From Alphaproteobacteria bacterium (lineage in GTDB: Bacteria > Pseudomonadota > Gammaproteobacteria > Burkholderiales > Burkholderiaceae_C), in the NCBI GenBank assembly GCA_030054175.1, contig JASGCM010000005.1:1-64000 (forward strand): a DNA stretch of 64,000 bases. Direction: 5' to 3'. Positions 1-25,854 of this stretch are shown piece by piece (positions within the stretch are counted from its first letter, which is position 1; every line of letters begins with the position of its first letter). A model generated the notes under the pieces. That model was not told where the DNA came from and made no database searches. It was given only the letters and a program-made list of their open reading frames with translations. The translations under genes were made by a program, and so were the position numbers.

Positions 1-15
1 GGCGGAGCAGGGGCT

Positions 16-1095
16 TTAAGCCACGACCAGTCGCGCGCCCAGGGCTTCGGCCTGGGCGATGTGCCCCACCTCGGCGGCATCGGCAAAGCCGTGTTTGTGA
101 AAGGTGGCCATGACTTCGGCCACTGATTCGGGCGCACAGGCGACCAGCAAGCCACCGCTGGTTTGCGGGTCGGTCAACAGGTCTTGATCGACCTGACTCA
201 GTTTGGAAGCCAAACTGACCTCGTGACCAAACGCCGCCCAGTTGCGCCTCGACGCGCCGGTGATCAGCCCTTGGGCCGCCAGCTCTCTCACGCCCGGCAA
301 CAGCGGAACGCGGTCCATGCTCAGATGGATGCGGGCTTGGGCACCACGGGCCATCTCCAGCGCATGACCGGCTAAACCAAAACCTGTGACATCGGTCAAT
401 GCGTGCACGCCCTCAATTCCCGCCAAGTTGGGACCGGGTGTGTTCAGGCGTGTGGTGTTGGCGATCATCTGTGCGTATTGCTCGGGGCTGAGCACTTCTT
501 TCTTCAAACCGGCCGACAACACGCCCACGCCCAGGGGCTTGCCCAACACCAAGCGGTCACCGACGCGAGCGTCGGCATTGCGTTTGACGCGCTTGGGGTG
601 CACCAGTCCCATGACCACCAAGCCATAGATGGGCTCGACCGAGTCGATGGTGTGCCCGCCGGCAATTGGAATGCCCGCAGCACGGCAGACCGATTGCCCG
701 CCGTCCAGAATCTGGCGGATGGTGTCGACCGGCAGCACGCTGACGGGCATGCCCACCAGCGCCAGCGCCATGATGGGTTGTCCGCCCATGGCATAGACAT
801 CGCTGATCGCGTTGGTGGCGGCGATCCGACCAAACTCAAACGGGTCGTCGACGATGGGCATGAAGAAGTCGGTGGTGGCGATCAGCGCCTGTTCGTCATT
901 GAGTTGATACACCGCTGCATCGTCAGCGGTCTCGATCCCCACCAACAGTTGAGGCGGGATCGGCATCGCCGTCGTGCCTTTCAATATCTCGCTGAGCACG
1001 CCAGGGGCGATCTTGCAGCCGCAGCCACCGCCATGCGAGAGGCTGGTCAAACGGGGGGTCGAGGGCAGGGAAGTCATGGGGTTCTCGTTCTTCAT
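16..1095 (-). CDS. selD: Selenide, water dikinase (selenophosphate synthetase)
   Basis: The enzyme makes selenophosphate from selenide and ATP. The 359-residue product is full length. The N-terminal loop HGGGCGCKI (residues 21-29) holds the catalytic Cys25 and Lys28, so the position that is Sec in some SelD proteins is Cys here and needs no UGA recoding. The AIRS-type nucleotide-binding core follows, including AISDVYAMGG and VTGFGLAGH. The start codon overlaps the senB stop by 4 nt (ATGA), making it the last gene of egtD-senB-selD. In selenoneine loci this gene is called senC and feeds SenB. No selA, selB or selC lies in the window, so a role in selenoneine synthesis is favoured; a shared role in selenoprotein synthesis cannot be excluded. 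Confidence 0.95.
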   Translation of the reverse strand: MKNENPMTSLPSTPRLTSLSHGGGCGCKIAPGVLSEILKGTTAMPIPPQLLVGIETADDAAVYQLNDEQALIATTDFFMPIVDDPFEFGRIAATNAISDVYAMGGQPIMALALVGMPVSVLPVDTIRQILDGGQSVCRAAGIPIAGGHTIDSVEPIYGLVVMGLVHPKRVKRNADARVGDRLVLGKPLGVGVLSAGLKKEVLSPEQYAQMIANTTRLNTPGPNLAGIEGVHALTDVTGFGLAGHALEMARGAQARIHLSMDRVPLLPGVRELAAQGLITGASRRNWAAFGHEVSLASKLSQVDQDLLTDPQTSGGLLVACAPESVAEVMATFHKHGFADAAEVGHIAQAEALGARLVVA

Positions 1096-2099
1096 ACAGG
1101 GTTCAATGATTCATGCACCAAGCGGCACAGTTCGGCGGCTTCACGCTCAGGGGCGAACAAGGGAGCTCTTAAGGCACATTGTGCTTGCAAATGGGTCAAC
1201 CTGGGGGCCTGGCCATCAGGGCTGGCGATTTGGCTGCGACGACACTCGCGCAGCAATTCGGTAGCGGCGGCGGCATCGCCCCAATCGAAATAGCCATCGT
1301 AGTCCACGCCGAGCATGCCGATGTTGCCCGCGACTTTGGATGCCAGCACTGGCGTGCCGCAGGTGATGGCTTCCATCACCACATGCGCACCGCCTTCCAT
1401 CTGACTGGGGTGCAGCAGCAAGTGAGCGCGCTGGATCTGGCGCCGCGACTGGGCATGGCTTACGCCGCCCAACCAACGGTAATGGGGACAGGCTTGCATG
1501 GTCGCGATTGCGGCCTCGCCCAAGGCGGGGTCCAAGGCCACGCCCAAGTGATCCAATGTGATGCCGTCTTGCGGGGTCAGGCGTTGGGCGATTTCCCACA
1601 CCGTTTGCGGTGATTTTTCGCTGCGCAGATGCCCCACCACCACCACTCGCAAGTGCCGAAGGGATTTGCCCAGGGTCAGTCGTGAGGTGCTGGATTGAAA
1701 CACCACCCGGCACTTGGCTCGCAGCGGTTCAGTTAACTCCAACGGTCCGGCCTCTTGCAAGACCACCAGCCGATTGGCCAGTTGCAAAGAACGCTGGGCA
1801 CTGGCGTCGGTCAGAATGTCTCGGTAAAGATCGGTGCCGGTCAAGGCCACGATCAGTGGGCGTTTGGGGTGCCGTTCGGCCCAGGCGGCAATCGAAGACG
1901 CCGAGCGGCGCGCGTGCAAGGCCAGTAAAACATCCAGTTCAGGGGCCTCTTCATCCGGCCAGCGGCTGAGCAAATGCACCCGGCAAGTGCCCGACAACAT
2001 GCGCGACCAACGGCGAGCCGTTTGCCAGTTCCCGTTGTTGGCGTCGGCCAGCGCGGGCGTGACGATTCCCACCCGGGGGCGGGTAGCACCCGGGCTCAT
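1092..2099 (-). CDS. senB: Selenosugar synthase, GT-B glycosyltransferase
   Basis: This 335-residue GT-B glycosyltransferase matches the group that sits beside senA and selD. Members couple selenophosphate to a UDP-sugar to make a 1-seleno-sugar, the selenium donor for selenoneine. The N-terminal half opens with RVGIVTPALADANNGN; the C-terminal half has a GT4-like nucleotide-sugar motif, SQMEGGAHVVMEAI, followed by GTPVLAS. The ATG at 2099 was chosen because it overlaps the egtD stop (ATGA); a longer upstream reading in the same frame only runs antiparallel-shadow sequence inside egtD. Its own stop overlaps the selD start. The assignment rests on the family look and on the neighbours egtD, selD and senA; a plain glycosyltransferase is the alternative. 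Confidence 0.88.
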   Translation of the reverse strand: MSPGATRPRVGIVTPALADANNGNWQTARRWSRMLSGTCRVHLLSRWPDEEAPELDVLLALHARRSASSIAAWAERHPKRPLIVALTGTDLYRDILTDASAQRSLQLANRLVVLQEAGPLELTEPLRAKCRVVFQSSTSRLTLGKSLRHLRVVVVGHLRSEKSPQTVWEIAQRLTPQDGITLDHLGVALDPALGEAAIATMQACPHYRWLGGVSHAQSRRQIQRAHLLLHPSQMEGGAHVVMEAITCGTPVLASKVAGNIGMLGVDYDGYFDWGDAAAATELLRECRRSQIASPDGQAPRLTHLQAQCALRAPLFAPEREAAELCRLVHESLNPV

Positions 2100-3097
2100 G
2101 AAGACACCTTGGCCCAGACGATGCTGAACCAGTTCTGCTCGTCGCTCCAAACGCCGCTGGGGTGAAACCCGGCTTGCTGCAACAAGTCGGCGAATGCCTC
2201 GGGCGTCCATTTGTACGAGTTTTCCGTGTGGATGCGTTCGCCGGCTTCGAAAGTGCGTTCGCCCCCAGGCCAGCGCACCATCTGTCGCTGACGGCTTTCC
2301 AGGTGCATCTCGATGCGTGACTCGACGGAATTGAAAAAAGCCACGTGCTCCCATAACCTGGGGTTGAAGTCGCTGCCTAAAATTCGGTTGGCGTGTGAGA
2401 GCACATTGCGGTTGAATGCGGCGGTCACGCCCAAGCTGTCGTCGTAGGCGGCTTGCAGCACAGCCACGGCTTTGGCCCGATCCACGCCGATCAGCAAACC
2501 TCCATCGGGCCCGCCTTGTTGGCACAGGGCGTGAGCCTGACGCAACAAACTCAGGGCTTCATCGGGGGCGAAGTTGCCGATGCTCGAACCAGGGTAGAAC
2601 AACAAGCGACCTTGTCGTTCGGCTTGCTGAGCTGTGAGCCAGTCCTGTGCTTGGGTCGGCCAAGACAGTGTGTTTGAGAAATCCATGCCCAGGCCCAACA
2701 TGGGCAGGGCGTCGTGCTGTTGCGCCAAAGCGTGCAAGGTGTTGCGCAAGAATTCAACCGAAATGTCGACCGCCACATAAGCCTGGGGTTGAAAGACCGG
2801 GAACAGACGCGCGGCTTTGGTGCAGCAACCGGCACCCAGATCGATCATGACCGATTGCGCCGGCACATGGCGCGCCATGTCCGCACCATGCCGGGCGAAG
2901 ATCGACGCCTCTGTGCGGGTGGGGTAGTACTCGCTCAACTCAGTGATGGCATTGAATAGCCTGGATCCCAATTCGTCGTAAAAGAACTTGGGCGCTACAC
3001 TGGCGGCAGATTGCCTCAGTCCAACATCCAGCTCAGTCGCGGTGTCAGCGGTCTGAGCTTGATGGATTTGAATGAATGTGGGGTTGTAGGTACTCAC
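2096..3097 (-). CDS. egtD: L-histidine N-alpha-methyltransferase
   Basis: EgtD trimethylates histidine with three SAM to give hercynine, the shared precursor of ergothioneine and selenoneine. The 333-residue length is typical. Visible hallmarks are the N-terminal PKFFYDELGSRLFNAI, the SAM-binding DLGAGCCTKA, FYPGSSIGNF in the middle, and the C-terminal ENSYKW. It is the first gene of a three-gene operon whose members overlap by 4 nt. A divergent start lies only about 120 nt away (phnD at 3222), so both promoters must sit in 3098-3221. No egtC or egtE is present, so hercynine most likely goes to SenA. Confidence 0.95.
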   Translation of the reverse strand: MSTYNPTFIQIHQAQTADTATELDVGLRQSAASVAPKFFYDELGSRLFNAITELSEYYPTRTEASIFARHGADMARHVPAQSVMIDLGAGCCTKAARLFPVFQPQAYVAVDISVEFLRNTLHALAQQHDALPMLGLGMDFSNTLSWPTQAQDWLTAQQAERQGRLLFYPGSSIGNFAPDEALSLLRQAHALCQQGGPDGGLLIGVDRAKAVAVLQAAYDDSLGVTAAFNRNVLSHANRILGSDFNPRLWEHVAFFNSVESRIEMHLESRQRQMVRWPGGERTFEAGERIHTENSYKWTPEAFADLLQQAGFHPSGVWSDEQNWFSIVWAKVSS

Positions 3098-3221
3098 GCA
3101 GTCATTTTACGGTGCGCAACGCATTCCAGCCTGTCTTGCTTCAGATGTCCCCAGAGATCTCTCTGAAAAGAGCAATCGGGTCTAATTGGATTTGATCTTC
3201 ACATTTTTTCAGGCCCTGACC

Positions 3222-4028
3222 ATGAAACCCTTTTCCATTCTCCGTCGCAACCTGCTCATGTGGACCGTGCTGGCGACCTTCGGGATGTCTGCCGCCCATG
3301 CTCAGTCTGTGCTCAAAGTCAGCACCATCCCTGAAGAGGTCGCCACCGAGCAGATTCGCAAATTCACGCCGCTGGCCGAATACCTGACCCAAGCCCTGGG
3401 CATGAAGGTCGAGTTCACCCCGGTCAGTGACTACCCGGCCGCCGTGGAAGCCTTGGTCAACAAGCGCATCGATCTGGTTTGGTTGGGTGGCTTCACCCAT
3501 GTGCAAGCCAACCGCCGTTCGGGCGGCAAGGTGATTGCATTGGCGCAGCGCGAGGAAGACACCCGTTTTCAATCGGTGTTCATCGCCAAGACCAATTCCG
3601 GCATCCAGACCTTGGCCGATTTGAAAGGCAAGCAAGTCTCCTTTGGTTCGGCCAGCAGCACTTCGGGGCATCTGATGCCGCGCAGTTTTTTGTTGTAAGC
3701 CTCCATCACCCCTGAGCGCGATTTCAAACGGGTGGCTTATAGCGGTGCACATGACGCCACCATCGCCTCGGTGGTCAGCGGACGCGTTGATGCGGCCGCT
3801 TTGGACATCACGGTCTGGCGCAAATTCGTCGACGAGAACAAGGTCGACACCCGAGCCGTGAATGTGTTCTACACCACCCCCCCGTACTTCAACTACAACT
3901 GGTCGGTGCATGCCGACATGCTGCTCACTGGGCTGTACCAACACCACGAGCACGAACTGACCGGCGCTGCCCCCATCGCACAGACCGAAGTTCAGGCTGA
4001 GTCGCCAGCGGTCATGCACTGCCGCTGA
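3222..4028 (+). pseudogene. phnD: PhnD-type ABC substrate-binding protein, nonsense codon, fused to PhnC tail
   Basis: The frame encodes a periplasmic binding protein of the phosphate/phosphite/phosphonate class. A signal peptide (residues 1-27, ending SAAHAQ) precedes the PhnD-like LKVSTIPEE, DLVWLGGFTHV and GKQVSFGSASSTSGHLMPR. A TAA at 3696-3698 interrupts it in frame after RSFLL; the same frame resumes with ASITPERDFKRVAYSG, so a CAA-to-TAA change is plausible. Homology to PhnD stops near 3917 (SVHADM). The last ~35 codons (LLTGLYQHHEHEL onward) look like the C-terminus of a PhnC ATPase. The reading is that the end of phnD and nearly all of phnC were deleted, leaving an in-frame fusion. 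Function is doubtful. Confidence 0.7.
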
Positions 4029-4040
4029 AGCATATCCTCA

Positions 4041-4880
4041 ATGAGCAAGGTCAGCACTGTATCTCTGGCGCCCACGCGTGATCCGGCCTGGCTGGGGCGC
4101 GTCTTCGGCTTGAGCGTGGTCTTGGTGTTGCTGTGGCCCATGCTGGTCGCCACCGAATTCAAGCCTTGGGTGTTTTTGGAGCCCGACAACCTGCGTGTCA
4201 GCGCTTCTTTCATCGCCAGTTTCTGGCCCTTGGCGCACGACACCGAATTTCTGCAACTGGTGCTGCTGAAGACATGGCGCACATTGGCCATGGCCACGGC
4301 GGGCATCACTCTGGCCTTGGTTTTGGCCATTCCTTTGGCGCTGATCAACAAACGCGTGCTCTCGATTTCGGCCCTTTCAGGCCGCATGGCCGCTTGGCCT
4401 TGGTGTATGCGGCAGGCTGCACGCTGGCTGTTGATCGTGTTGCGCAGCATCCCCGAGTTGGTTTGGGCCCTGGTCTTCGTGCGGGTGGTGGGCCTGGGTC
4501 CGGCGGCCGGGGTGCTGGCCATCGCGCTCACCTATGCCGGTATGTTGGGCAAGGTATACAGCGAAATTTTCGAAAGTGGCGATCCGCACGCCACCCAGAC
4601 CTTGTTGCGATCAGGCAGCGGACGTTTGCAGGCTTTTTTCTATGGCTTGTTACCTACCCACGCCGCCGAACTGACCAGCTACACGGTCTACCGTTGGGAA
4701 TGCGCCATCCGTTCCTCGGTGGTGCTGGGTTTTGTCGGGGCCGGTGGTTTGGGCCAGCAGATGGACAACGCCATGAAAATGTTCAACGGCGGTGAAGTGG
4801 CAACCTTGCTGTGCGTATTTGTGGCCCTGGTGGCCATTGCCGATCGCGTCAGCGCAGAGCTCAGAAAGGCCCTGGGTTGA
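4041..4880 (+). CDS. phnE: Phosphonate-type ABC transporter permease 1
   Basis: This 279-residue inner-membrane permease has the expected length for PhnE. Several transmembrane segments are obvious, for example FGLSVVLVLLWPMLV and the stretch after TWRTLAMA. It carries the BPD-permease coupling region around SIPELVWALVFV, and FVGAGGLGQQMDNAM near the C-terminus is typical of PhnE. It starts 12 nt after the phnD/C remnant and its stop overlaps the next permease. The substrate could be phosphonate, phosphite or another oxyanion; its position between egtD and senA raises the idea of a selenium species, which is inference only. With no phnC gene left, the transporter looks inactive unless an ATPase is supplied elsewhere. 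Confidence 0.85.
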   Translation: MSKVSTVSLAPTRDPAWLGRVFGLSVVLVLLWPMLVATEFKPWVFLEPDNLRVSASFIASFWPLAHDTEFLQLVLLKTWRTLAMATAGITLALVLAIPLALINKRVLSISALSGRMAAWPWCMRQAARWLLIVLRSIPELVWALVFVRVVGLGPAAGVLAIALTYAGMLGKVYSEIFESGDPHATQTLLRSGSGRLQAFFYGLLPTHAAELTSYTVYRWECAIRSSVVLGFVGAGGLGQQMDNAMKMFNGGEVATLLCVFVALVAIADRVSAELRKALG

Positions 4881-5338
4881 GTGCGCCCTTCGTTGCGCGG
4901 GTGGCTTGGGGTTTTGTCGAGACCTTGGCCATGTCGCTCCTGGGTACCTTGTTGGCGGCCGTGGCCGGCTTGGCCTTGGCGGTGCACACCACCGGTGTGC
5001 TGGGTCGTTTGTTTGCCGAGGCGATCGAGAACGCCCCAAAGGGACCCGCTGAGGCTTTGCGGGCTCACGGCATCGACGATGTGCGTTTGTTGGGCTATGC
5101 CCTGTTGCCACAGGTCTTGCCTCAGTTGCTCAGTTACACCTTGTATCGATGGGAGAACAACATCCGCGCAGCGGCCATTTTGGGCGTGGTGGGGGCGGGA
5201 GGTCTGGGCCAGTTGCTGTCCTTCCACCTGGGTTTGTTTCAGATGGACAAAACCGCCACGGTCTTGCTGGCCATGTTGATCATGGTGGCCTGGGTCGACG
5301 CACTCAGTGCATGGGCGCGACGCTGGTTGACCCGCTAA
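4877..5338 (+). pseudogene. phnE: Phosphonate-type ABC permease 2, internally deleted
   Basis: The frame starts at a TTG overlapping the phnE1 stop (TTGA) and gives 153 residues, against about 260 for the family. The N-terminal membrane segment (TLAMSLLGTLLAAVAGLALA) runs straight into HTTGVLGRLFAEAIEN, which in full-length PhnE lies well downstream. The C-terminal part, including GVVGAGGLGQLL, is normal. An in-frame deletion of the middle, including the region equivalent to SIPELVWA in the first permease, is the simplest reading. The repeated TTGGCCTTGGC-like sequence at the joint would suit slippage between short repeats. The stop lies 25 nt from the convergent senA stop. Confidence 0.65.
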
Positions 5339-5363
5339 AGACCGGGGCCATCGGTAGCCCCAC

Positions 5364-6533
5364 TCAGCGCATCGCCAAGGTGCGAAAGCCCACCAGCATA
5401 TCGGTGCGATGAGGCATGAAGAAATTTCGAAACCGGGTATCGAGCAAACACTCGGGTGTTGCCCAAGACGCCCCTTTCAGTACCCGATGCGTGCCCCACC
5501 AGGGGGCCGAGTAGTCTTGATAGGCGTGAGCCACAAAACCCGGAAAAGGCTCAAAGGGGCTGGCAGTCCATTCCCACACCTCGCCCCAGATGAATTCTGG
5601 GTGTGCTGCGGCAGCGCACCACTGGGCTTCCGTGGGCAAGCGCCGTCCCGCCCACTCGCACCAGGCTTGCGCGTCGGTGGCGCTCAGGTGCACGGCCACT
5701 TCGTCGACCGGCAAAGGCAGCCAGCGATCAAATCGCCGCACCTCCCAAGCCCCCTCGTGTTGGCGCAAGACTTGGGGCAGCGGGTGCCCGGTGTCGGTCA
5801 AAAAATCCAAATACGCCCCCCAGGTCACTGGCCGAACGTCGATCTCGAAGGCGTCCACCTGCAAGGTGTGCGCTTGGCATTCGTTGTCAAAGGCAAAGCC
5901 CGGCCCCCGATGCCCCAGCAACACCGATGTGGCCTCGACTCGCAATGTGGCCTTGGCAGCCTTTGTCTGCAGATCCGTGGATTCGCGTCGTTCCGGACTC
6001 AGCGGCCATGACAAGCCCAGGTGTTGCGCCATATAGACCGAGGCCTCCACATGCATGGCTTCGTGAAACAGGGCCAGACGCCAGAAATACATGCTGTCGT
6101 CGCTGTCATTGGGGGCAGTGCGCAAGCCAGACAGGCTCAGTTCGTTGACTTGTTGCAAATAAGCCAGCGTTGCATCCCCATCGGGCAGGGGCAAGACCCA
6201 GCGGCGGTCATGGGCCACGTTGCTTGAGTTGTACAGCGCATCAGCCCCGGCAAGGATCGAGGGCCCAAAACCTGACCCCTCGCTGGGGCTGTGTCTGCCG
6301 CCATAGCGGTAGGCATTGCGCACCGTCCACCATTCCTGAAACCAGGCGACATGACCCCATTCCCAAATTGGCGGGTTCAACACCGACTCTTGGGGCACGG
6401 CCAAATCGGGCAAGGCCTGACGCCAAGCCCGAATCAGCGCCAGGTGTTGCTCTCGCAGATGCGTCAAGGCTTGAGCCAATTGGGCTGGGCCGGCATGACG
6501 TTGGGGGCTGTGAACGCTACGGTGCATCAGCAA
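5364..6533 (-). CDS. senA: Selenoneine synthase, EgtB-like non-heme iron enzyme
   Basis: SenA joins hercynine to a selenosugar by oxidative C-Se bond formation, using non-heme iron and oxygen. The 389-residue product has the two-domain EgtB-type layout: an N-terminal DinB-like bundle with iron ligands His61 (WEWGHVAWFQEWW) and the pair His157/His161 in HEAMHVE, then a C-terminal FGE-sulfatase domain (RPVTWGAYLDFL, GRRLPTEAQW, EVWEWTASPF, VLKGASW). The end VGFRTLAMR is typical. It is called SenA rather than EgtB because of senB and selD nearby and the absence of egtC/egtE; sequence alone cannot fully separate the two. It is transcribed in the same direction as egtD-senB-selD but separated from it by the phn genes. 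Confidence 0.85.
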   Translation of the reverse strand: MLMHRSVHSPQRHAGPAQLAQALTHLREQHLALIRAWRQALPDLAVPQESVLNPPIWEWGHVAWFQEWWTVRNAYRYGGRHSPSEGSGFGPSILAGADALYNSSNVAHDRRWVLPLPDGDATLAYLQQVNELSLSGLRTAPNDSDDSMYFWRLALFHEAMHVEASVYMAQHLGLSWPLSPERRESTDLQTKAAKATLRVEATSVLLGHRGPGFAFDNECQAHTLQVDAFEIDVRPVTWGAYLDFLTDTGHPLPQVLRQHEGAWEVRRFDRWLPLPVDEVAVHLSATDAQAWCEWAGRRLPTEAQWCAAAAHPEFIWGEVWEWTASPFEPFPGFVAHAYQDYSAPWWGTHRVLKGASWATPECLLDTRFRNFFMPHRTDMLVGFRTLAMR

Positions 6534-6672
6534 ATCATAGACGCTGTAGGCATTATCCTGCGCTTGACACAGAACCGCTGCTTGTCGCCCCTAGCATTGA
6601 CTTGATACAGGGCGGGGGTTAGATTCACGCCGTCCGTGGCAGTTGCGGCGGGCACAATCGCAGGAGAATTAC

Positions 6673-7638
6673 ATGATCCGTCCCCTGGTAGCGGCTGTCG
6701 CCGTCGCCCTGTGTTCGACCGCCCCCGTTCTGGCTCAGGTGGCTCACTTCCCAAGCAAACCCATCCGCATCATCGTGACCACGCCAGCTGGCTCGGGTGC
6801 CGATTTCTTCGCCCGCACCTTGGCGCAGGGTTTGGCCGACACCGACAAGGGCGTTGCGCCTGTGGTGGAAAACCGCCCTGGAGCCGGCGGCATCATCGGT
6901 GCGTGAAGTGGCCAACGCCGCACCTGACGGCTACACCCTGGGTGTGGCCTCGACTGCTCACGTGGTCTCGCCCATGTTACAGGCCAACCCGCCCTACAAG
7001 CCCCTGGCCGATTTCACGCCCATCGCCCAATTGACGGCTTTGCCCTTTATTCTGGTGGCAGCCCCCACCGTCCAAGCCAAGAACCTGCCCGAATTGGTCA
7101 GCGCCATCAAGGCTGCGCCCAAAAAGTACAACTTCGGATCGTTGGGCAACGGCACCGCACCCATCTGGGCGCTGAAATCTTCAACGCCGCCGCCGGTGCC
7201 GACGTGGTTCATGTGCCCTTCAAAGGCGCGTCTGATTTGTACACCGCCCTGATCTCGGGCGAGGTGCACTACGCGGCCCTGTTCGTCCCCACTGCCGGTG
7301 TCTTGCGAAGCGGCAAAGCGCGCGTGCTGGCTGTGACCGGAAAATCCCGCAATGTCGCCCTGCCTGAGGTGCCCACTGTGGGCGAGCAGGGACTGCCTGC
7401 TGCCGAAGCCGAAGCCCTGATGGGCATCGTGGCCCCTGCCGGAATGCCGCCCGAGTTGGTGCGCAAACTGCATGCCGACATCGTTGCCGTGCTGCGCAAA
7501 CCCGAGACACGCGAGAAATTCGCTACCCAAAGCGGCGAGCCCACCCCCGAGGTCTCCAGTGCCGACTACGCCGCCAAGCTCAAGGCCGAATACGAGCTCT
7601 ACCAACGCCTGTTGCCCCGCATGGGTTTGAAGCCCTGA
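6673..7638 (+). pseudogene. Bug-family (TctC) periplasmic receptor with two frameshifts
   Basis: Three collinear segments make one Bug receptor. The first (from ATG 6673) has a signal peptide ending PVLAQ and the family motif FPSKPIRIIVTTPAG, and stops after GAGGIIGA. An extra base near 6902 (GCG-T-GAA) shifts the frame into EVANAAPDGYTLGV. A compensating shift near 7155-7163 restores the original frame before HLGAEIF, followed by HVPFKGASDLYTALI and the end MGLKP. Summed length is normal for the family (about 320 residues). Both indels could be sequencing errors. It is divergent from senA and 6 nt upstream of the CocE fragment. Ligands of Bug proteins are usually carboxylates and cannot be read from sequence. 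Confidence 0.8.
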
Positions 7639-7644
7639 ACCATC

Positions 7645-8139
7645 ATGCGATTTGAACAAGACGTGGCCATCGAGGCCAGTGATGGTCTGCTGCTGCGCGC
7701 CAACGTGTTTCGTCCCGACGCCCCTGGCCGCTATCCGGTGGTGATGGCCCACGGGTCCTATGGCAAAGATATGCACTTCTCGCACGCCTTCAAGCCCCAA
7801 TGGGAAAAGCTCAACCGCATCTACCCGGGTCTGGGGACTCAGGGCTCCAGCGGACGCTACTTGCGCTGGGAGACCGTGGATCCCGAGCGATGGGTGCCCG
7901 ACGGCTATGTGGTGGTTCAAGTCGACTCGCGCGGCACTGGCAAATCACCCGGTTACCTCGACCCCTTTTCACCGCGTGAAATTCAAGACGACTTCGACTG
8001 CATCGAATGGGCCGGTGTGCAAGACTGGTCCAACGGCAAAGTGGGTTTGCTGGGCGTGTCGTACTACGGCATCGAGCAATGGCAAGTGGCCGCCTTGCGC
8101 CCGCCTCATCTGGCGGCGATTTGCCCTTGGGTTTTGTGA
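7645..8139 (+). pseudogene. CocE/NonD-type serine hydrolase, N-terminal fragment
   Basis: The 164 codons match the start of an X-Pro dipeptidyl-peptidase/cocaine-esterase type hydrolase: DGLLLRANVFRP, VVMAHGSYGKD, VVQVDSRGTGKSPG and the nucleophile elbow GLLGVSYYG. Full-length relatives have about 550-650 residues; here homology ends at HLAAICPW near 8130, and the next bases belong to an ABC permease in another frame. The Asp and His of the catalytic triad and the C-terminal domain are lost, so no activity is expected. The gene begins 6 nt after the Bug receptor stop, suggesting they were once co-transcribed. Confidence 0.8.
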
Positions 8140-8504
8140 TCGGCATGAGCCCCTTGCTATCACGCGCATTTGACCCGTTCATCCAGGTGCTCAAGCCCAT
8201 CAGCCCGTTGGCCTGGATGCCTCTGGCGCACTACCCCATCAAAGACTCGTCGATATCTGGTGTGTTCGTGATCTTCATCTGCTCGGTGTGGCCGATGTTG
8301 ATCAACACCGCGTTTGGCGTCGCATCGGTCAAGCGCGACTGGCTCAATGTGGCCCTGACGCTGGAGGTCTCTCCCTTGCGCAAGGCCTTTCAAGTGATCC
8401 TGCCGGCCGCCGCGCCCACCATTTTGACGGGCATGCGCATCAGCATGAGCATCGCCTGGTTGGTGATCGTCGCCGCCGAGATGCTGGTGGGTGGCACGGG
8501 CATT
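8130..8504 (+). pseudogene. Nitrate/cyanate ABC transporter permease fragment (NtrB/CynB-like)
   Basis: In a different frame from the hydrolase fragment, the sequence reads as the second half of an NtrB-type permease: GFVIGMSPLLSRAFDPF, SPLAWMPLAHYPIKDSS, VFVIFICSVWPMLINTAF, SPLRKAFQVILPAAAPT and AWLVIVAAEMLVGG. There is no start codon or N-terminal half. Homology stops at GGTGI, where the leader of cynS takes over, so the permease C-terminus and the expected ATPase gene are missing as well. It looks like a piece of a cyanate-uptake operon joined by two deletions. Confidence 0.7.
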
Positions 8505-8535
8505 GACATTTTTTTGAACCAACCGGAGTGTTTGA

Positions 8536-8979
8536 ATGAACCGCAACGACGTCACCGAAAAAATCATCGGCACCAAAGTGTCCAAGGGCATGAAGTGGGA
8601 TGCCATTGCCAAGAAGGTGGGGGAGTCCAAAGAATGGACCCCCGCCCTGTGCATGGGGCAGATGACCGCCACGCCCGCACAAGCCAAGGCGCTGGGCAAG
8701 TTGTTTGGATTGACCGCCGAAGAACAAAAGTGGCTGCAAGTGGTTCCCTACAAAGGTTCCCTGCCCACGCCCGTGCCCACTGACCCGCTGATTTACCGTT
8801 GGTACGAAATCGTCAGCGTCTATGTCACCACCATCAAGGAACTGATTCACGAAGAGTTCGGCGACGGCATCATGAGCGCGATTGACTTCAGTATGGACAT
8901 TCAACGCGAGCCCGACCCCAAGGGCGACCGCGTGAATGTGGTCCTTTCGGGTCAATTCCTGCCCTACAAAACCTACTGA
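8536..8979 (+). CDS. cynS: Cyanate hydratase (cyanase)
   Basis: Cyanase converts cyanate and bicarbonate to ammonia and CO2. The 147-residue product is of normal length and clearly homologous to E. coli CynS throughout. The catalytic Arg and Glu are in IYRWYEI and the catalytic Ser is in GDGIMSAIDF; the C-terminus FLPYKTY fits the family end. A good ribosome-binding site (CGGAG) precedes the ATG. Upstream, only a fragment of an NtrB-type permease remains of the usual cyn transport genes. The gene itself looks intact, so detoxification of internally produced cyanate is still possible. Confidence 0.95.
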   Translation: MNRNDVTEKIIGTKVSKGMKWDAIAKKVGESKEWTPALCMGQMTATPAQAKALGKLFGLTAEEQKWLQVVPYKGSLPTPVPTDPLIYRWYEIVSVYVTTIKELIHEEFGDGIMSAIDFSMDIQREPDPKGDRVNVVLSGQFLPYKTY

Positions 8980-13404: not shown

Positions 13405-14694
13405 TCAATCGGGCCGATTCAACTCTTCAAACTTGGTTGCCATGGTGGGGTTGCCCCGAGTCAGTTTTTTGATGCTGACATCCTGAGCCTTGTCGTTGGC
13501 CAAGCGCAAATTGCGGTCTGCCCCCACCAAGGCGTCGCGGGTCTTTTGTAAGTGCTTGATCGACTTGTCGATCTCATCGATTGCATCTTGAAAGTGCTTG
13601 TTGGTCAGTTCGTAATTGCGCGCGAAGGCCGATTTGAACGACTCCAGCCGATCTTCAAAGTTCGTGATGTCGATGTTTTGCGCTTTCACCAGGGCCAACT
13701 CGGTTTTGTACTCAACCGCATTGAACGCCGCGTTGCGCAGCAGGGTGATCATGGGGATGAAGAATTGCGGCCGAATCACGTACATCTTGGGGTAACGGTG
13801 ACTGACGTCAACGATACCCGTGTTGTAGAGCTCGTTGTCGGGCTCCAGCAATGACACCAGCACCGCGTACTCGCAGCCTTTCTCGGTCCGGTCTTTGTCC
13901 AGTTCCTTGAAGAAGTCTTCGTTCTTCTTTTTGGTCGCAGTGCTGTCGTTTTCGTTCTTCATCTCGAACATGATCGAGACGATTTCGGTCTTGCCATCGG
14001 CCAGATCGCGGAAGATGTAGTCCCCCTTGCTGCCGCTGCTGGCGTCGTTGTCTTTCTCAAAAAAGGCTTTCGGGAATGCGGTGGCGCGCAACCGGTCAAA
14101 CTCGGTTTGGCAGTGTTGCTCCAGGGTCTCGCCGACCATTTTGGTAGACAATCGCACCTTCATGTCGCGCAAGCGCTCTATGGCCTCGTCGCGGTCCTTG
14201 ATCTGGGTTTCGTACTTGTCGCGCAGCGACTGCTCGGCCAGCTTTTTTTGCAGCTCATTGGCCGCGAGCTGGGCTTTGAGTGCATCGCGCTCCTTCTCGA
14301 CCGAACCCAGCGCTTGCGTCACCGCCAGTTGCTTTTCCAATTCGCTGGATTGAAGTTTCGCCTTGAGCGCATCGCGCTCCTTCTCGATCGACCCCATAGC
14401 CTGGGTGATGGCCAGCTGTAACTCGCTTTGGCTGGCTTGCAGTTTCGATTGCAAGGCGGCGATTTCGGCGTCTTTGCCCGCTGCGTTTTGCACCAAAGCC
14501 GCTTGCGCTTGCGCCTGAGCCAGCTTCACCGCATTTTCTTTATCGGTGTGCGCGGCGTGCAAACGTTCTTGCAATTGTTGTTGAAACTCTTTGTCACGCA
14601 CCTGTTTCAAAATGTCGGCATAGTCGGCCTCATCGACTTTGAAGGCTTTGGCGCAGTGTGGGCAGATGATGTCGTGCATGTGGGACCTGTGCAT
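13405..14694 (-). CDS. DUF2130 coiled-coil protein with nuclease-like domain
   Basis: The product is 429 residues from the ATG at 14694, or 424 from the ATG at 14679 (MHDIICPHC), which may be the true start. It begins with a CxxC zinc-ribbon-like motif, continues with a long coiled coil (about residues 30-175) containing two near-identical copies of a segment with [12 protein letters not shown] / [12 protein letters not shown], and then the DUF2130 domain. That domain contains GDYIFRD and FEMKNEND, an acidic-ExK arrangement resembling PD-(D/E)xK nucleases. The C-terminus is again helical. The function of DUF2130 proteins is not established as far as I know. It stands alone, convergent with the Bug gene. 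Confidence 0.8.
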
Positions 14695-14784
14695 TCAGAG
14701 CGATCATTATTGCCTGCAATTGTGTGCAGACACAGGCTCATGGGCTGAGCCTGAGGGCAGCAAACGCCAAAGTCATCTTCGGGA

Positions 14785-14873
14785 TCAAATAATTGGGGTC
14801 AGACCCCAATTATTGGGGTCTGACCCGATAATTGGGGTCTGACCCCAATTATTTGACCCCAATTATTTGACAG
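14785..14873. repeat. Tandem GGGGTC palindromes upstream of hpaH
   Basis: Three palindromes follow each other. The first and third are perfect (AATTGGGGTC-A/T-GACCCCAATT); the middle copy has one mismatch (GACCCG). Two further half-sites, TTTGACCCCAATTAT, lead to within 10 nt of the hpaH start. Such elements resemble the REP-like repeats found next to RAYT (Y1_Tnp) transposases. No transposase gene was found here. Confidence 0.85.
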
Positions 14874-14881
14874 GATCATCG

Positions 14882-15697
14882 ATGCTGAGCGAAGAACACA
14901 TCTGGCAATTGGCGCAAGAGCTCAACGAAGCCGAGAAGTGCCGGACCCAGGTCGAGCACTTCTCCAAGCGCTATGCGGACATGACCATCGAGGATGGTTA
15001 CCGCATCAACCGCGCCTGGATGCAACTTAAATATGCTGAGGGGCGAACCGCCATCGGCCACAAAATCGGATTGACCAGCCGCGCCATGCAAGTGTCCAGC
15101 CAGATCGATGAGCCCGACTACGGCACCTTGCTCGACGACATGCTCTACACCTGTAGCCCGGGGCTGGTGTTGGAGATTCCGCATGATCGATTCATTGCTC
15201 CGCGAGTCGAAGTCGAGTTGGCATTTGTCTTGAAAGCCGATTTGCGTGGCCCAGATGTGACGCTGCAGCAGGTGCTTGACGCCACCGATGTCGTGACCCC
15301 GGCCATCGAGATCATTGATGCGCGCATCGAGCAATTCGACCGCCACACCAAAGCCCCCCGCAAGGTGTACGACACCATCAGCGACAACGCCGCCAACGCT
15401 GGCATCGTCGTTGGGGCCAAGCGGGTGAACCCGCACCTCACCGACTTGCCTTGGTGCGGTGCTGTCCTTCGGCTCAATGGGGTCGTTGAAGAAACCGGAT
15501 TGGCTGCCGGCGTGCAAGGCCACCCAGCGATTGGCATCGCCTGGCTGGCCAACAAACTGGCCCCTTGGGGCGAACACCTGAGCGCCGGTGAGATCGTGCT
15601 GGCCGGGTCGTTCACCAAACCTGTTCCCGCACGCCGTGGTGATGTCTTTCAAGCCGACTACGGCCCGTTGGGACAAATCGAATTCCGACTGGTTTGA
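14882..15697 (+). CDS. hpaH: 2-oxo-hepta-3-ene-1,7-dioate hydratase
   Basis: HpaH hydrates 2-oxohept-3-enedioate in the homoprotocatechuate meta-cleavage pathway. The 271-residue product has the hydratase/decarboxylase-family motifs [33 protein letters not shown] and [10 protein letters not shown], and the end [13 protein letters not shown] 14882 (MLSEEH) was preferred over an upstream in-frame start that lies in the repeats. No other hpa/hpc genes flank it; instead both sides carry GGGGTC palindromes, and no clear ribosome-binding site survives because the repeats run almost up to the start. A related vinylpyruvate hydratase (MhpD/DmpE type) is the alternative. Confidence 0.85.
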
Positions 15698-15698
15698 A

Positions 15699-15742
15699 GG
15701 AAATGGGGGATCGACCCCAATTTCTGACCCCAATTTCCTATA
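15699..15742. repeat. GGGGTC-type inverted repeat downstream of hpaH
   Basis: Directly after the hpaH stop, AGGAAATGGGG is followed by GACCCCAATTTC and a second GACCCCAATTTCCT, forming nested inverted repeats (GGAAAT...ATTTCC). The core matches the palindromes upstream of hpaH, so the gene is bracketed by related elements. Confidence 0.75.
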
Positions 15743-16220
15743 AATGCGTTCAGTCTCCCTGACTGAGCAGTCTCTCGGCCAAAGGGGGGCCTTTAAACAA
15801 GGCTGGGCACATGCCTTGGGTCAAATCGATTGTGCGTGGGTCGTGATTGACCATGACTCAGTTAATGAGCTGGGCACGCGAGCCTTGGCTGTTGACGAAT
15901 CGACTCACCATGGCCATCACGCCTAATCTCTCACCGCCCCAATTCAGCGCGAAGCTATGCTGAGCCCTTGCACCACAAGGTACTTGATGGCGGGTAGTCT
16001 GCGGATAAATTCGTTAGAACTCTCGCACTCAGTCAGGGTCATGAACTCGACGCGCTCTACTTGCGGCAAACTGCCCAGCCATGCACGGCCCCATGGCGGT
16101 TAAACCGACGCTGCGCATGGCACCAGCGGGAAGGTGCGGCAGCGTTCCTCGGACATGCACGCAAGTCTCCAGACAAACTTTATCAAGCCCCATGGCCACA
16201 TCTTGACATCCGAGGCCCTA
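15743..16220. other. Gene-poor stretch with possible relics
   Basis: I find no convincing complete gene. On the minus strand, a readable stretch without start (about 15957-16106, ending KYLVVQGLSIASR and a stop) and a short frame near 15750-15925 interrupted by TGA (RAQLIN-stop-VMVNHDPRT) look like relics of small genes. I do not recognise either. The GC content is slightly lower than in the neighbours. Confidence 0.4.
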
Positions 16221-16871
16221 TCACTCCGCTTTTTCAGTGCTGAACCACTGCTGGTGCAAGTCGGGGAAGTGGTGCTCGGGCTGTGCCTTGGGTCTGGGGA
16301 CTTTGGGCGGGTCTTGTGTGGGGGCTGCCAGCAATGTGTCCAGTGTGGGGTAGGCGTAGTCTGACAAGGCAAAGACCCTCCCTTGGCTTTCAGCCAGGGT
16401 GCTGACATGGGTTTGCCCCTGTTGGGTCAGCAGGTACCAGGGGGCCAGGTGTGTCAACCCCGTGCCGCGCACATACAAGCGCACGGCTTGGCCTTCGCAA
16501 GTGCCTTCCAGCAGGCTGATGCCCGCTGGGGCAGTCAGGGTGGTGACGCGCTGACAGTCCAAGGGTGTCCAACGGGCTTGTATCAGCAATTGGGTCACGC
16601 TGGGTCGTGTCGGCGGCAGGGTGAGACGGATTTGGGTGATGTCGCGCAGGAATTCGCCTGTGCTGCAGGGGTGCGGGGTCCAGGGCGGGCCCCACAGGTT
16701 GTATGCACCGATCGCGCCCGATGGTGTTCGGTACATGCAGATGTCTCCCAAGCAGTTGGGACAATAGGCGTTGTACTGGTCTGGCGCGTGTGGCCGTATG
16801 GGTTGCTGGGCCGTTCCAGGCTGCAGAAAGATGGGGGTGCTGTCAAAGCGTTTTGGCGGTTTATTGCGCAT
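16221..16871 (-). CDS. Hypothetical protein with CPNC...HPC zinc-site-like motif
   Basis: I do not recognise this 216-residue protein. ATG 16871 (MRNKPPKRF) was chosen because AGGAAA lies just upstream; an in-frame ATG at 16973 has no such site. Near residues 37-68, CPNC and a later HPC could bind a metal, with GAIGAYNLWGPPWTP between them. The rest has regular beta-like segments (GQAVRLYVRGTGL, VFALSDYAYPTL) and a proline-rich, charged C-terminus. No signal peptide or membrane segment is seen. It lies in an otherwise gene-poor region next to a WYL regulator and REP-like repeats, which suggests an accessory gene. Confidence 0.55.
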   Translation of the reverse strand: MRNKPPKRFDSTPIFLQPGTAQQPIRPHAPDQYNAYCPNCLGDICMYRTPSGAIGAYNLWGPPWTPHPCSTGEFLRDITQIRLTLPPTRPSVTQLLIQARWTPLDCQRVTTLTAPAGISLLEGTCEGQAVRLYVRGTGLTHLAPWYLLTQQGQTHVSTLAESQGRVFALSDYAYPTLDTLLAAPTQDPPKVPRPKAQPEHHFPDLHQQWFSTEKAE

Positions 16872-17345
16872 GGGGTTTCCTGTGAGTAGGTCTGTAAGGG
16901 ATGCTGGGCGTACCGCGATGCCCGCCATGCCATGGTATGGACTTCTGGGGTTTTTGCGATGTAAATAGTTCACAAGCGGGGAGCGCTAACTAAGGCAGTC
17001 TCAGGCCATGAGTTCGGGGACTTTAAGGCGAGGCAGGTTATGTCGTGTGCTGCCCCAATCGCACCAGCCAATGAGGTGAGATGTCTCGGGTCAAATTCTC
17101 TTCCTTATCGGCTGTAAGGCTCATGATCGGCCGACATCGATCCGGTGGTGCGGCAACTCAAGCCTCATGATGAGCGCCACCAGGTTGTCCAGTTTGGCAA
17201 GACGCCTGGGGCTTTGTCGACGGATATCCACCAGAACAAAGCGATGTTGCAAGCTGTTGCGCAACCAGCCGTGGGGCATGTGCCTCAAGTGATCGGCCAA
17301 TCGGTGACTCCCGCCCCAACGGGAAACCCCCAGGGAGAAATCTGC
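16872..17345. other. Gene-poor stretch upstream of WYL regulator
   Basis: No clear gene is present. On the minus strand an open stretch at about 17127-17320 without a good start reads RLADHLRHMPHGWLRN ... RIDVGRS and a stop; it has plausible composition but I recognise nothing. It may be the end of a degraded gene. Confidence 0.35.
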
Positions 17346-18317
17346 TCAGCGATACGACTCATACTGTTGCATGGCCGCGCGCAAGGCCCGCTGCACATGG
17401 GTGCGCAGCGACTGCGGACCCAATACCTCCACTTCGGGGCCGTGGCGCATGATTTCGCCGATCAACTCACGCTCATCGCTGTAGGGGACTTTCAGTCGGT
17501 AGCTGCCGTCCTTTTCCATCTTTGCCTCTTGCTCAGGGTGCCACTGCTCGCGTTCGACCCAGCGGGTGCGCTCGGGTGTGAAACGCAAATCGGCCCACTG
17601 CACGTCTTTGCCGCTGAAGATGCCGTAACCCTTTTGTACCTCGGCTTCGATTTCGCTCAAAGGCACCTCACGGGCTGCCAGATCGAGCATCTCGCACTGG
17701 GTGATGGCGTCGACTGAGAACTGGCGCAGGCCATCGCGCAAATGGCACCATGCGTCCACATACCAGTTGTCGCGGTAGTACACCAGTTGCTGGGGCGAGA
17801 TCGCCCGCTCGATGGTGTCTCCGCTTTGCCGGTTGTAGTGGTGGATGTTCAGGCGACGGCGATGAAGCGTGGCCATGGCCACGGTCTGAAACGACTTCAG
17901 CGGCAAATCGCGTTTGCCAGCGTGTACCAGCTTGACGCGTCGCGTCAGCACGTTGGCATCGGTCCCTTGGCTGGCCACAATCTCGGCCAGCCGCTCCTGC
18001 AAGGGGTTGAGCTTGGGGCTGAGCAGCCCCGGTTCGAGCTGGTTGATCATGTTGTGGATGGTCAGCAGAGCCAGAATTTCCTCTTGGCTGAACCACAGCC
18101 CCGGCAATTCGGTGTGCGGGTCGTCCTGCTCCAGCAGATAGCCACCCCGGTCACGGTCAAAAATCACGGGCAAACCCACCCGCTCACGCAGCTTGGCCAA
18201 GTCGCGTTTGAACGTGGCGGGGGAGATTTCCAAGGCTTGGAGAAGACTTTCTCGGCTGACGGCACGGCGGGCCGACAACAACGTGCGGTATTTCATCAAA
18301 CGGTCGAGTTCTGTCAT
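17346..18317 (-). CDS. HTH/WYL-domain transcriptional regulator (YafY type)
   Basis: The 323-residue product has an N-terminal winged helix (LDRLMKYRTLLSARRAVS...SPATFKRDLAKLRERVGLPV) and a C-terminal WYL domain (ISPQQLVYYRDNWYVDAWCHLRDGLRQFSVDAI), followed by the WCX-like extension. WYL domains sense nucleotides or other small ligands and occur in DNA-damage and phage-defence control as well as in metabolism. ATG 18317 (MTELDRL) aligns with the usual family start; an in-frame GTG at 18353 would add 12 residues. It is divergent from the MarR gene. No defence genes were recognised next to it, so the target is unknown. Confidence 0.85.
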   Translation of the reverse strand: MTELDRLMKYRTLLSARRAVSRESLLQALEISPATFKRDLAKLRERVGLPVIFDRDRGGYLLEQDDPHTELPGLWFSQEEILALLTIHNMINQLEPGLLSPKLNPLQERLAEIVASQGTDANVLTRRVKLVHAGKRDLPLKSFQTVAMATLHRRRLNIHHYNRQSGDTIERAISPQQLVYYRDNWYVDAWCHLRDGLRQFSVDAITQCEMLDLAAREVPLSEIEAEVQKGYGIFSGKDVQWADLRFTPERTRWVEREQWHPEQEAKMEKDGSYRLKVPYSDERELIGEIMRHGPEVEVLGPQSLRTHVQRALRAAMQQYESYR

Positions 18318-18491
18318 GGCAGGTTGTCCAGGGGATGAATTAATTTTTACCACTATTGTGATCAGGGTCGAGCCAAAGCCGTGAGCCTGTCGGCCTGATC
18401 TTTCATACAGCGTCCCATGCTGAAGTGCAATCCAACCCCAAGTAGGGGTGATTTCATCTCGTGAGTGTGCTTACAATCGATGGGGTAGCTG

Positions 18492-18989
18492 ATGAATCTC
18501 ATGGCCCCGAACAACCCCATCCTCTGTGCAACCACCGAAGCATTGCCGCGTATGCCGGGGCATTTGATCCGCCGTTTGCAGCAGATCGCGGTGGCGATTT
18601 TTTTGGAGGACACGGCATCGTTTGGCATCACCCCTGTGCAGTACGCGGCGCTGCTCAGCCTGAACGACCACCCTGGCGTGGATCAGCGCACGCTGGCGGC
18701 CTTGGTGGGTTTGGACGCCTCGACTTTGGGCGGGGTGGTGGATCGGCTGGAGACTCGGGGCTGGTTGCAGCGCCAACCTTCACCCACCGATCGGCGGGTG
18801 AAACTGCTCAATATCAGCCCGGAGGGGCGTCGTTTGCTGCAAGACATGGCAAGCTCAATCGAGGCATCTCAGCAGCGCATACTGGCACCCTTGCCAGCGG
18901 TCAAGCAAGCACAGTTCATGGCCATGCTGGCCGAATTGGTCGACAAGAACAACACGCTCAGCCGCGCGCCCATTCCGGGCGAGGACTGA
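18492..18989 (+). CDS. MarR-family transcriptional regulator
   Basis: This 165-residue winged-helix regulator shows the MarR pattern: an N-terminal dimer helix (HLIRRLQQIAVAIFLE), ITPVQYAALLSL, the recognition region DQRTLAALVGLDASTLGGVVDRLE, and the wing with LQRQPSPTDRRVKLLNIS. It usually represses a nearby aromatic or lyase gene until a ligand binds. Its stop is 6 nt from the convergent aldolase gene, and the divergent WYL regulator is upstream. The target may be the aldolase/SDR pair; this is inference from position. Confidence 0.9.
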   Translation: MNLMAPNNPILCATTEALPRMPGHLIRRLQQIAVAIFLEDTASFGITPVQYAALLSLNDHPGVDQRTLAALVGLDASTLGGVVDRLETRGWLQRQPSPTDRRVKLLNISPEGRRLLQDMASSIEASQQRILAPLPAVKQAQFMAMLAELVDKNNTLSRAPIPGED

Positions 18990-18995
18990 ACCCCT

Positions 18996-19754
18996 TTAGC
19001 GCTTGTAGCCGTCGTCGATGCGGTTGACCTGGCGCACCAGGGCGTTGAAGAGGTCGACCCCAACGCCGCCTTGTTTGATGTCGAATTGCAGAGAGTCGCG
19101 GGTGCATTTGGCGGCAATGTCCTCGGGCACGGGCAGGGGCTGCCCCATGCTGAGGGTGGCCATTTGAATTTCGCAGGCCCTTTGCAGCGTCCACAGCACG
19201 GCAAAGGCTTCTGGCAGGGTGGTGCCCCAAGACAGCAGGCCGTGATTCTTCAGAATCACCGCAGGTTTACGGCCGATGCTGCGCAATACGCGCGGGCCTT
19301 CTTCCATGTGAACGGTGATGCCCTCGAATTCGTGATGAGCCACCAGATCATGCAGTTGCGCCGAGTAGAAATTGCTTTGGGACAGCCCCGAGGCCAGACT
19401 GGCCACGGCCACGCCGGCGGTGGTGTGGGTGTGCATGACCGCATGTGCGCCCTCGATGCCGCCATGGATGGTGCTGTGCAGCACATAGCCGGCAGGGTTG
19501 ATGGGGTAGCGCGAAGAACCGATGATGTCGCCAGCCAGGTTGACTTTGACCAGGTTCGACGCGGTGATCTCGGTGTAATGCAAGCCAAAGGGGTTGATCA
19601 GAAACTGCTTGTCGTCACCGCTTGCCGAGTCGGGCAACCGCAGCGTGATGTGGTTGTAGATCATCTCGGTCCAGCCGAGCATGGCAAAAATGCGGTAGCA
19701 AGCCGCCAGTTGCTGTCGGGCGGCCCATTCGTCAGGGTGCATGTCAGGGGTCAT
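18996..19754 (-). CDS. Class II aldolase/adducin-family protein
   Basis: The 252-residue protein has the class II aldolase fold. Metal ligands are seen in HTHTTAG and in the later His of LKNHGLLSWG; IYNHITLRLP and INPFGLHYTEIT are family motifs. Members are zinc-dependent aldolases or decarboxylases acting on sugar phosphates or hydroxy acids. The exact substrate cannot be read. It follows an SDR gene on the same strand with a 57-nt gap, so aldolase and SDR may form one catabolic operon. An alternative start is ATG 19742. Confidence 0.88.
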   Translation of the reverse strand: MTPDMHPDEWAARQQLAACYRIFAMLGWTEMIYNHITLRLPDSASGDDKQFLINPFGLHYTEITASNLVKVNLAGDIIGSSRYPINPAGYVLHSTIHGGIEGAHAVMHTHTTAGVAVASLASGLSQSNFYSAQLHDLVAHHEFEGITVHMEEGPRVLRSIGRKPAVILKNHGLLSWGTTLPEAFAVLWTLQRACEIQMATLSMGQPLPVPEDIAAKCTRDSLQFDIKQGGVGVDLFNALVRQVNRIDDGYKR

Positions 19755-19811
19755 GGGCAGGGTGCTCAGGGTGAAGTGGCAAGCCTCATTGTGCCTTGAA
19801 GTCCTGTCGCT

Positions 19812-20576
19812 TCAATAGGCCGTCAGTCCGCCATCCAGGTGCAGGATTTGGCCGGTGATGTAGTTGGCCTGTGGGCTTGCCAGGTAGGCAACCGCTTGGC
19901 CCATTTCATCGGCTTGACCAAAGCGCCCCAAAGGGATGCGCCCCAGCATGGCGTCGCGCTTGCTCGGTTCGCTCAGCCGAGGCGCGCGGGTTTCGGTCAG
20001 CGTGGTTCCCGGTGCAATGGCATTGACGCGGATGCCATGGGTGGCCCATTCAATGGCCAGCATGCGCGTCATGTGGCTGATGCCTGCTTTCGAGATGCCA
20101 TACACCGAGGCGCCGGCCAGACCGACGCTGCCGTGCGTGGAACTGAGGCTGACCACGGCACCGCCACGACCGCGCTCGATCAGCCAAGCGCCAAAGGCGA
20201 TGGTCAGCAGGAAGGTGCCTTCCAAGTTGATGTTCATGACGGCATCCCAATCGGCCGCACTGGTTTGTGTGGCCGGTTTGGACAATGAGGGCACCCCCGC
20301 GTTATTGACCAGCAAGCCCAGATCGGGGCACCGGCGCCCCACATCCGCGACCCAAGCGGGCAGGGCATCGGCGTCATTCAAGTCCAACGCCATCGCTTGC
20401 ACCGAGACGCCCAGCGCTTGCGCTTGGGCGACGACGGGGGCCAAGGCGTCTGGATGGAGGTCGGTCAGAACCAGGTACCAACCCTGTTGAGCCAGTGCCA
20501 GTGCACTGGCGCGCCCGATGCCATAAGACGCGCCGGTGACCAAGGCGGTGCGGATACTGTGGTCTGAAGTGTTCAT
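19812..20576 (-). CDS. Short-chain dehydrogenase/reductase
   Basis: The 254-residue product is a classical SDR. It has the cofactor motif TGASYGIGRA, the NNAGVP structural motif, catalytic Ser in SLSSTHGS, YGISK as the YxxxK active site, and the C-terminal GQILHLDGG. TDLHPD after beta-2 has an Asp that favours NAD over NADP. The substrate is unknown. It is upstream of the class II aldolase on the same strand and divergent from the Bug-cupin chimera. Confidence 0.92.
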   Translation of the reverse strand: MNTSDHSIRTALVTGASYGIGRASALALAQQGWYLVLTDLHPDALAPVVAQAQALGVSVQAMALDLNDADALPAWVADVGRRCPDLGLLVNNAGVPSLSKPATQTSAADWDAVMNINLEGTFLLTIAFGAWLIERGRGGAVVSLSSTHGSVGLAGASVYGISKAGISHMTRMLAIEWATHGIRVNAIAPGTTLTETRAPRLSEPSKRDAMLGRIPLGRFGQADEMGQAVAYLASPQANYITGQILHLDGGLTAY

Positions 20577-20710
20577 GCGAACTACCCATTTACCCTAGAG
20601 GCTCTGACTTATCGAACTTGCTTTTGTTAGAACAGCGCAGCGATTTTGTAGGGTTGTGACGACCGATCATCGTCGCACACCGTGTTGGTTTCATCAAGAG
20701 GAGCATTGAC

Positions 20711-21793: not shown

Positions 21794-21891
21794 ACCCCTT
21801 CGCCACGGCTTTGTCACTGCGGTAAACCCCTGCTCAGTGCTTGGCGGCGTGCCACCAAAATCAGTTCATCTATATGGACTGAAGGTGAGAC

Positions 21892-22872: not shown

Positions 22873-22890
22873 TCCAAACAGGAGCAGTCC

Positions 22891-23828: not shown

Positions 23829-23835
23829 TTCGTAT

Positions 23836-25776: not shown

Positions 25777-25854
25777 GTTGTCTCCTTCTTGGTGAGGGCC
25801 TCGTTCGGTGTTTTTTTTTGAGGGGCAGTCGAGCGGTTGCGTCTTGACGCGCCC

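Follow-up and report, generated by a model that had tools for sequence, protein, structure and literature searches.

A candidate selenoneine biosynthesis locus with a senA set apart and a decayed ABC transporter in a betaproteobacterial genome

Layout of the locus

The window, meaning the whole 64,000-nucleotide stretch analysed here (contig JASGCM010000005.1, positions 1 to 64,000, assembly GCA_030054175.1), opens with a candidate locus for the synthesis of selenoneine, a selenium antioxidant, in a betaproteobacterial genome. The minus strand carries an egtD-senB-selD run, with senA on the same strand 2.3 kb upstream (Table 1), and window position 1 coincides with the start of the 163,237-bp contig, the visible locus stopping just past selD. 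Since the gap at 3098-5363 is filled by the plus-strand remains of an ABC transporter of TIGR04553/PhnE type, senA lies outside the run. The four genes make up a complete set for the pathway and had all been named in an earlier note made from the sequence alone; its coordinates were found to be correct, as were its two ATGA overlaps (senB/selD at 1092-1095, egtD/senB at 2096-2099), and each product scores above its NCBIfam cut-off, at levels well beyond chance. That note had overlooked the remains of the transporter, the unmatched gene order, and the probably separate origin of senA.

The egtD, senB and selD genes are probably co-transcribed and translationally coupled, with senA forming a separate unit. 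Promoter-like matches in 1-7200 were no richer than in shuffled sequence (1, shuffle mean 1.5), and terminator-like matches showed no enrichment (9, versus 7.8 in shuffles).

Table 1. Features of the locus, in window coordinates; scores are given as bits/cut-off.
Feature	Description	Coordinates	Strand	Basis
selD/senC	selenide water dikinase, 359 aa, Cys form GGGCGCK	16..1095	-	NCBIfam NF002098 547.8/299; TIGR00476 436.6/125
senB	selenosugar synthase, ATGA overlap with selD	1092..2099	-	TIGR04348 419.2/300, profile positions 1-309 of 310
egtD	L-histidine N-alpha-methyltransferase (hercynine), GTG start, ATGA overlap with senB	2096..3097	-	TIGR03438 355.6/290.9, profile positions 3-300 of 301
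senA	selenoneine synthase, 389 aa from TTG; alternative ATG two codons inside	5364..6533	-	NF041186 427.3/420, profile positions 1-381 of 382
Binding protein remnant	remains of the substrate-binding protein of a putative selenate ABC transporter (TIGR04553), C-terminal part missing	3186..3920	+	288.3/250, profile positions 1-206 of 266
ATPase remnant	C-terminal stretch of about 34 residues, joined to the damaged binding protein	3924..4028	+	tblastn with relatives' ATPases
First permease	PhnE-like, full length	4041..4880	+	TIGR01097 194.3/216.7, under cut-off; 78% identical to L082 over 282 residues
Second permease	N-terminal part and inner segment deleted	4871..5338	+	alignment to the L082 permease (283 aa)

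Enzyme identities

For comparison, 299 genomes were drawn from the family, 110 of them with a SenB above cut-off; 111 SenB stretches (each up to about 17 kb, many ending at contig ends) were fetched and, together with the window, gave 112 sen loci (individual loci are numbered L, genomes G and contigs of the window's assembly C). Matches within these loci were found to SelD in 102, SenA in 80, a TIGR04553-type binding protein in 63, and EgtD in 46.

SelD/SenC is encoded within the window locus itself, with the motif GGGCGCK versus GAGCGCK in the closest solved SelD. In 20 of the 112 loci the SelD match is weak (144-164 bits, including L056:8849-11236 and L128:8898-11276), and the two such proteins examined are fusions of a TIGR03169 oxidoreductase domain to SelD at the usual senC place. 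SenB aligns nearly end to end with solved Se-glycosyltransferases (phmmer, 8k5u at 5.7e-115, and the SenB entries 8jjq and 8fbx at about 1e-109), and carries N24, T27, K162 and E235 as well as the EGGAHV motif; the corresponding N20, T23, K158 and E231, with EGGAHV, are described as decisive in PMC10891094. EgtD matches the Protein Data Bank (PDB) EgtD at 5.9e-45 over aligned residues 23-326, and is the only PF10017 match found in the genome.

Placement of SenA

Since the window SenA lies barely above its cut-off, and the NF041186 model matches 214 of the 299 family genomes at E < 1e-70 (108 of these above cut-off), a tree was needed to place it. The input comprised senB-adjacent SenA, 40 homologues away from senB, 25 EgtB above the TIGR03440 cut-off, the Variovorax SenA, and OvsA. 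From 221 matched open reading frames (ORFs), 203 remained after removal of those spanning below 300 residues and of L149-L160, whose stretches duplicate others in the set, and 188 non-identical sequences plus 2 references gave 190 rows.

The earlier note had named grouping with ergothioneine EgtB as the outcome that would overturn its reading; in the EgtB-rooted tree, the window SenA fell instead within a 45-row clade (SH-aLRT 94) made up of 41 senB-adjacent SenA, 2 near senB, the Variovorax SenA, and the window SenA itself. Its side of the tree holds 158 rows and zero EgtB. A separate 39-row clade, without the window SenA, takes in 32 of the 40 senB-distant homologues, together with 6 senB-adjacent and 1 near senB. 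A careful tree of the inner 93 rows placed the window SenA nearest L195, L210 and L144 (97/89), inside a 44-row clade (99/95).

In pairwise comparison (phmmer), the window SenA scores 320 bits to SenA, 148 to OvsA and about 90 to EgtB, and its score against the EgtB model TIGR03440 is below cut-off (195.4/360 bits). Identity as EgtB, with no EgtB row on the window's side, and identity as OvsA were both rejected. When conserved columns were defined as the same residue in at least 97% of 86 senB-adjacent SenA, 68 of 71 are kept in the window SenA, including H61, H157 and H161, three histidines shared with EgtB and presumably, as in that enzyme, iron ligands.

Matches to the NF041186 model also occur at E < 1e-70 in 117 genomes without a SenB above cut-off, and the homologues fetched away from senB (L241-L280) lie both over and under the SenA cut-off. 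NF041186 may be naming enzymes that use another selenium or sulfur donor.

Gene order and ancestry of senA

The earlier note's statement that sen clusters often lack egtD stands, as 66 of the 112 loci are without it; its presence in the cluster is nonetheless common (46/112), and the idea that an egtD within the cluster is exceptional was rejected. Genome-wide, an EgtD match at E < 1e-70 was found in 97 of the 110 SenB genomes. When the 112 loci were combined with a further set of 80 (192 in total, the sets overlapping in genomes), egtD lay directly upstream of senB (gap of at most 64 bases) in 20, three of which have the 4-base overlap, the window being counted in both figures. The commonest order with all genes present is transporter< egtD> senA< senB> selD> (18/112), and the window order, senA> transporter< egtD> senB> selD>, was found in the window alone among the 112 loci and was absent from the further 80 named loci.

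In the SenB and SelD trees, the window groups with L098, L106, L082 and L126 (support 99 and 98, respectively), and in the EgtD tree with L106 and L098 (support 99). L098 and L106, which have the canonical gene order, pair together in the SenA tree (100/100), in a clade other than that of the window SenA. Constraining the window SenA to L098 and L106 was 79 log-likelihood units worse and was rejected (approximately unbiased (AU) test, p-AU 2.27e-05), the rows for this test being taken from the SenB, EgtD and SelD trees at a stage when a first SenA tree was already known. The reverse constraint, window SenB with L195 and L210, was rejected less strongly (p 0.0106, rows chosen from the SenA tree, 94 of 174 rows used).

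The ancestry of senA probably differs from that of egtD, senB and selD, and because of this difference the original senA was probably lost and replaced. The locus would have derived from a canonical cluster (transporter / egtD / senA / senB / selD); in the simplest history, the old senA would have been lost from between egtD and senB, leaving these two overlapping, and a foreign senA of another lineage would have arrived beyond the transporter. Provided that the trees hold, SenA would have been exchanged for that of another lineage, with SenB, SenC and EgtD retained. The three other genus members in the first draw, the only ones searched for these genes, were without a SenB above cut-off, SenA or EgtD at E < 1e-70, or TIGR04553 at E < 1e-60.

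Decayed transporter and damaged neighbours

The binding-protein gene contains one in-frame TAA, at 3696-3698, its profile score being that of a search reading across the stop, and its product matches the L106 counterpart over residues 31-239 of 294. The ATPase remnant corresponds to residues 243-276 of 276 in L082 and L106, and to residues 259-294 of 294 in L144. The second permease aligns to that of L082 only between about residue 76 and residue 283, interrupted by a gap of some 50 residues. A TIGR04553-type system is recognisable from a binding protein above cut-off; an intact set of binding protein, ATPase and two permeases is not present. The window genome is the only one of 132 TIGR04553-positive genomes (E < 1e-60) with a stop inside the match.

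Damage continues beyond senA. In 6643-8783, three ORF fragments are accompanied by a CocE/NonD hydrolase gene that is truncated and by a piece of an NtrB-type permease, after which comes an intact cyanase (8536-8979). The three ORF fragments (6643-7638) gave no NCBIfam match; by eye, we take them to be one broken TctC/Bug-like receptor. The presence of an intact senA amid decaying genes suggests that it is still used.

"Putative selenate transporter" is the existing NCBIfam name for TIGR04553, and a search of open-licence literature turned up no test of it. The family was found in 84 of the 110 SenB genomes versus 48 of the 189 others (Fisher p 9e-18, without correction for kinship). From the 48 SenB-less loci, 20 were fetched, and a selD match lay in the same 5-15.5 kb stretch in 10 of them; one of the 20, L307, comes from a genome (G291, 58% complete) with a SenB fragment cut by a contig end. 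The link between TIGR04553 and selenium is suggestive only. According to a 2026 review (PMC13188914), prokaryotes have no identified high-affinity transport system specific for selenium. It is tentatively proposed, at somewhat less than even odds, that the TIGR04553 ABC system is the dedicated selenium importer of sen and selD loci, and that this genome represents a naturally occurring mutant without an importer, in which the selenoneine pathway was retained, and in part acquired anew, despite the importer's destruction. If so, the pathway here would run on selenium entering by a general route. The locus also points to a testable candidate importer.

Selenium use in the genome

One SelD above cut-off was found in the whole genome, that of the window; MnmH is above its cut-off on contig C14, and SelA had no match in the genome. 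Among the 111 fetched senB loci, no MnmH match exceeded 120 bits. Because SelD is single, MnmH is present and SelA was not found, the lone selD probably feeds MnmH (selenouridine) in addition to selenoneine, a reading which presupposes that contig C13, that of the window, belongs to the genome.

Eleven of the 110 SenB genomes (G021, G036, G137, G160, G189, G191, G196, G203, G224, G233 and G264, with loci including L082 and L126) are without a SenA or EgtD match at E < 1e-70, and 8 of the 11 keep the TIGR04553 transporter. SenB genomes of this kind are possibly selenosugar-only producers.

Interpretation and alternatives

The locus is read, with a probability of about 0.86, as the known Variovorax-type selenoneine pathway with a swapped senA, a dead candidate importer, and a selD shared with MnmH. 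The presence of the genes, their open frames, the gene trees and the damage to the transporter are observed; the enzyme activities, co-transcription and loss-and-replacement are predicted from them. The selenoneine assignment of the earlier note is supported by family cut-offs, PDB matches, the SenA tree, and conserved residues. In the proposed route (steps as given in PMC9814287, PMC10702425, PMC10891094 and PMC10903977), EgtD would trimethylate histidine to hercynine, SelD/SenC would make selenophosphate from selenide and ATP, SenB would transfer selenium onto a UDP-sugar to give a selenosugar, and SenA, an iron enzyme, would join selenosugar and hercynine, the adduct breaking down to selenoneine. 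Because the linked candidate importer is destroyed, selenium would have to be taken up by a different route. Within an already known pathway, new here are the swapped senA, the gene order of single occurrence, and the dead candidate importer.

Several observations weigh against this assignment. The SenA score is only 7 bits above cut-off in a family whose scores grade into homologues away from senB, and the protein departs from 3 of the 71 conserved columns (L to M, F to W, Y to F). The senA gene does not adjoin senB, and the sole promoter-like match in 1-7200 lies on the strand opposite to it. In SenB, the residue ahead of the catalytic lysine is E161, in place of the V157 of the solved enzymes from Variovorax and Ramlibacter; PMC10891094 reports lower activity when V157 is replaced by A, F, I, M, R or K, E not being among the replacements; glutamate at this position is invariant in 11 of 11 aligned SenB, which were picked for closeness to the window and exclude L039 (out of frame). 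Finally, with the surroundings decaying, the enzymes could be on their way out too.

It is unlikely that the transporter damage is an assembly artefact and that the importer is whole in the living cell. A stop plus three deletions are much for one operon, and the assembly is in 39 contigs with 4.91% estimated contamination. However, whole gene parts are gone with the remainder joined in open frames, unlike base-calling errors, the genes at 7645-8783 are truncated as well, and the flanking senA and egtD are open throughout. In favour of the artefact, when window 14001-32000 was compared with 30 other genomes, the top-scoring DNA matches came from two genomes in other families of the order (702 and 619 bits, 70%), and the best genus match (593 bits, 78%) had the highest identity among long matches. 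A short dispersed repeat, matching over 31 to 80 bases at up to 100% identity, links contig C13 to C10, C20, C21, C26 and C34 of the same assembly, which argues both against an artefact and against a stray contaminant; the latter, for which the better-scoring matches outside the genus would speak, is also unlikely. An imperfect palindrome at 14781-14860 (37-nt arms, 95% complementary) recurs in five other contigs and in other genus members, and resembles a REP-type element.

That the SenA-like protein is EgtB-like and makes ergothioneine, with selD and senB serving another purpose, is very improbable. SenA is an EgtB homologue with a measurable score to TIGR03440, it is separated from senB, and the NF041186 matches in SenB-less genomes mean that the family name alone is no proof of function; yet that score is far below cut-off, the protein sits with senB-linked and Variovorax SenA rather than EgtB and outside the clade holding most sampled homologues away from senB, and no EgtB above the TIGR03440 cut-off was found elsewhere in the genome.

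Equally improbable is a locus whose product is a selenosugar, or which now only supplies selenophosphate for MnmH with selenoneine synthesis a relic: the sole selD copy found, the presence of MnmH, the dead neighbouring importer, and the SenB genomes without SenA and EgtD (among them L082 and L126 of the window's own SenB clade, the L126 genome being 73% complete) are in its favour, but neither egtD nor senA is shortened, and almost every conserved position is kept in senA amid decayed genes, where random decay would be expected to hit them.

Comparison with known systems

The sen cluster of Variovorax paradoxus DSM 30034 (senA, senB, senC; Kayrouz et al. 2022, as cited in PMC9814287, PMC10702425 and PMC10891094) likewise has the SenA, SenB and SelD/SenC families in one locus, and the key SenB residues are kept in the window. 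Unlike in that cluster, a broken transporter separates senA from the other genes in the window, senA and senB share a strand, egtD overlaps senB directly, and senA differs in lineage from the other three genes. The common full-length cluster (for example L098, L106 and L161) has the same genes, and the window egtD, senB and selD group with those of L098 and L106, whereas the window senA is not between egtD and senB, and the transporter is wrecked. Ergothioneine synthase EgtB belongs to the same superfamily as the window SenA and shares its three histidines, but occupies a separate part of the tree. The selenoxide synthase OvsA (PDB 8u41, 8ux5) is a related enzyme, named for selenoxide synthesis, to which the window SenA scores at most 148 bits, versus 320 bits to SenA.

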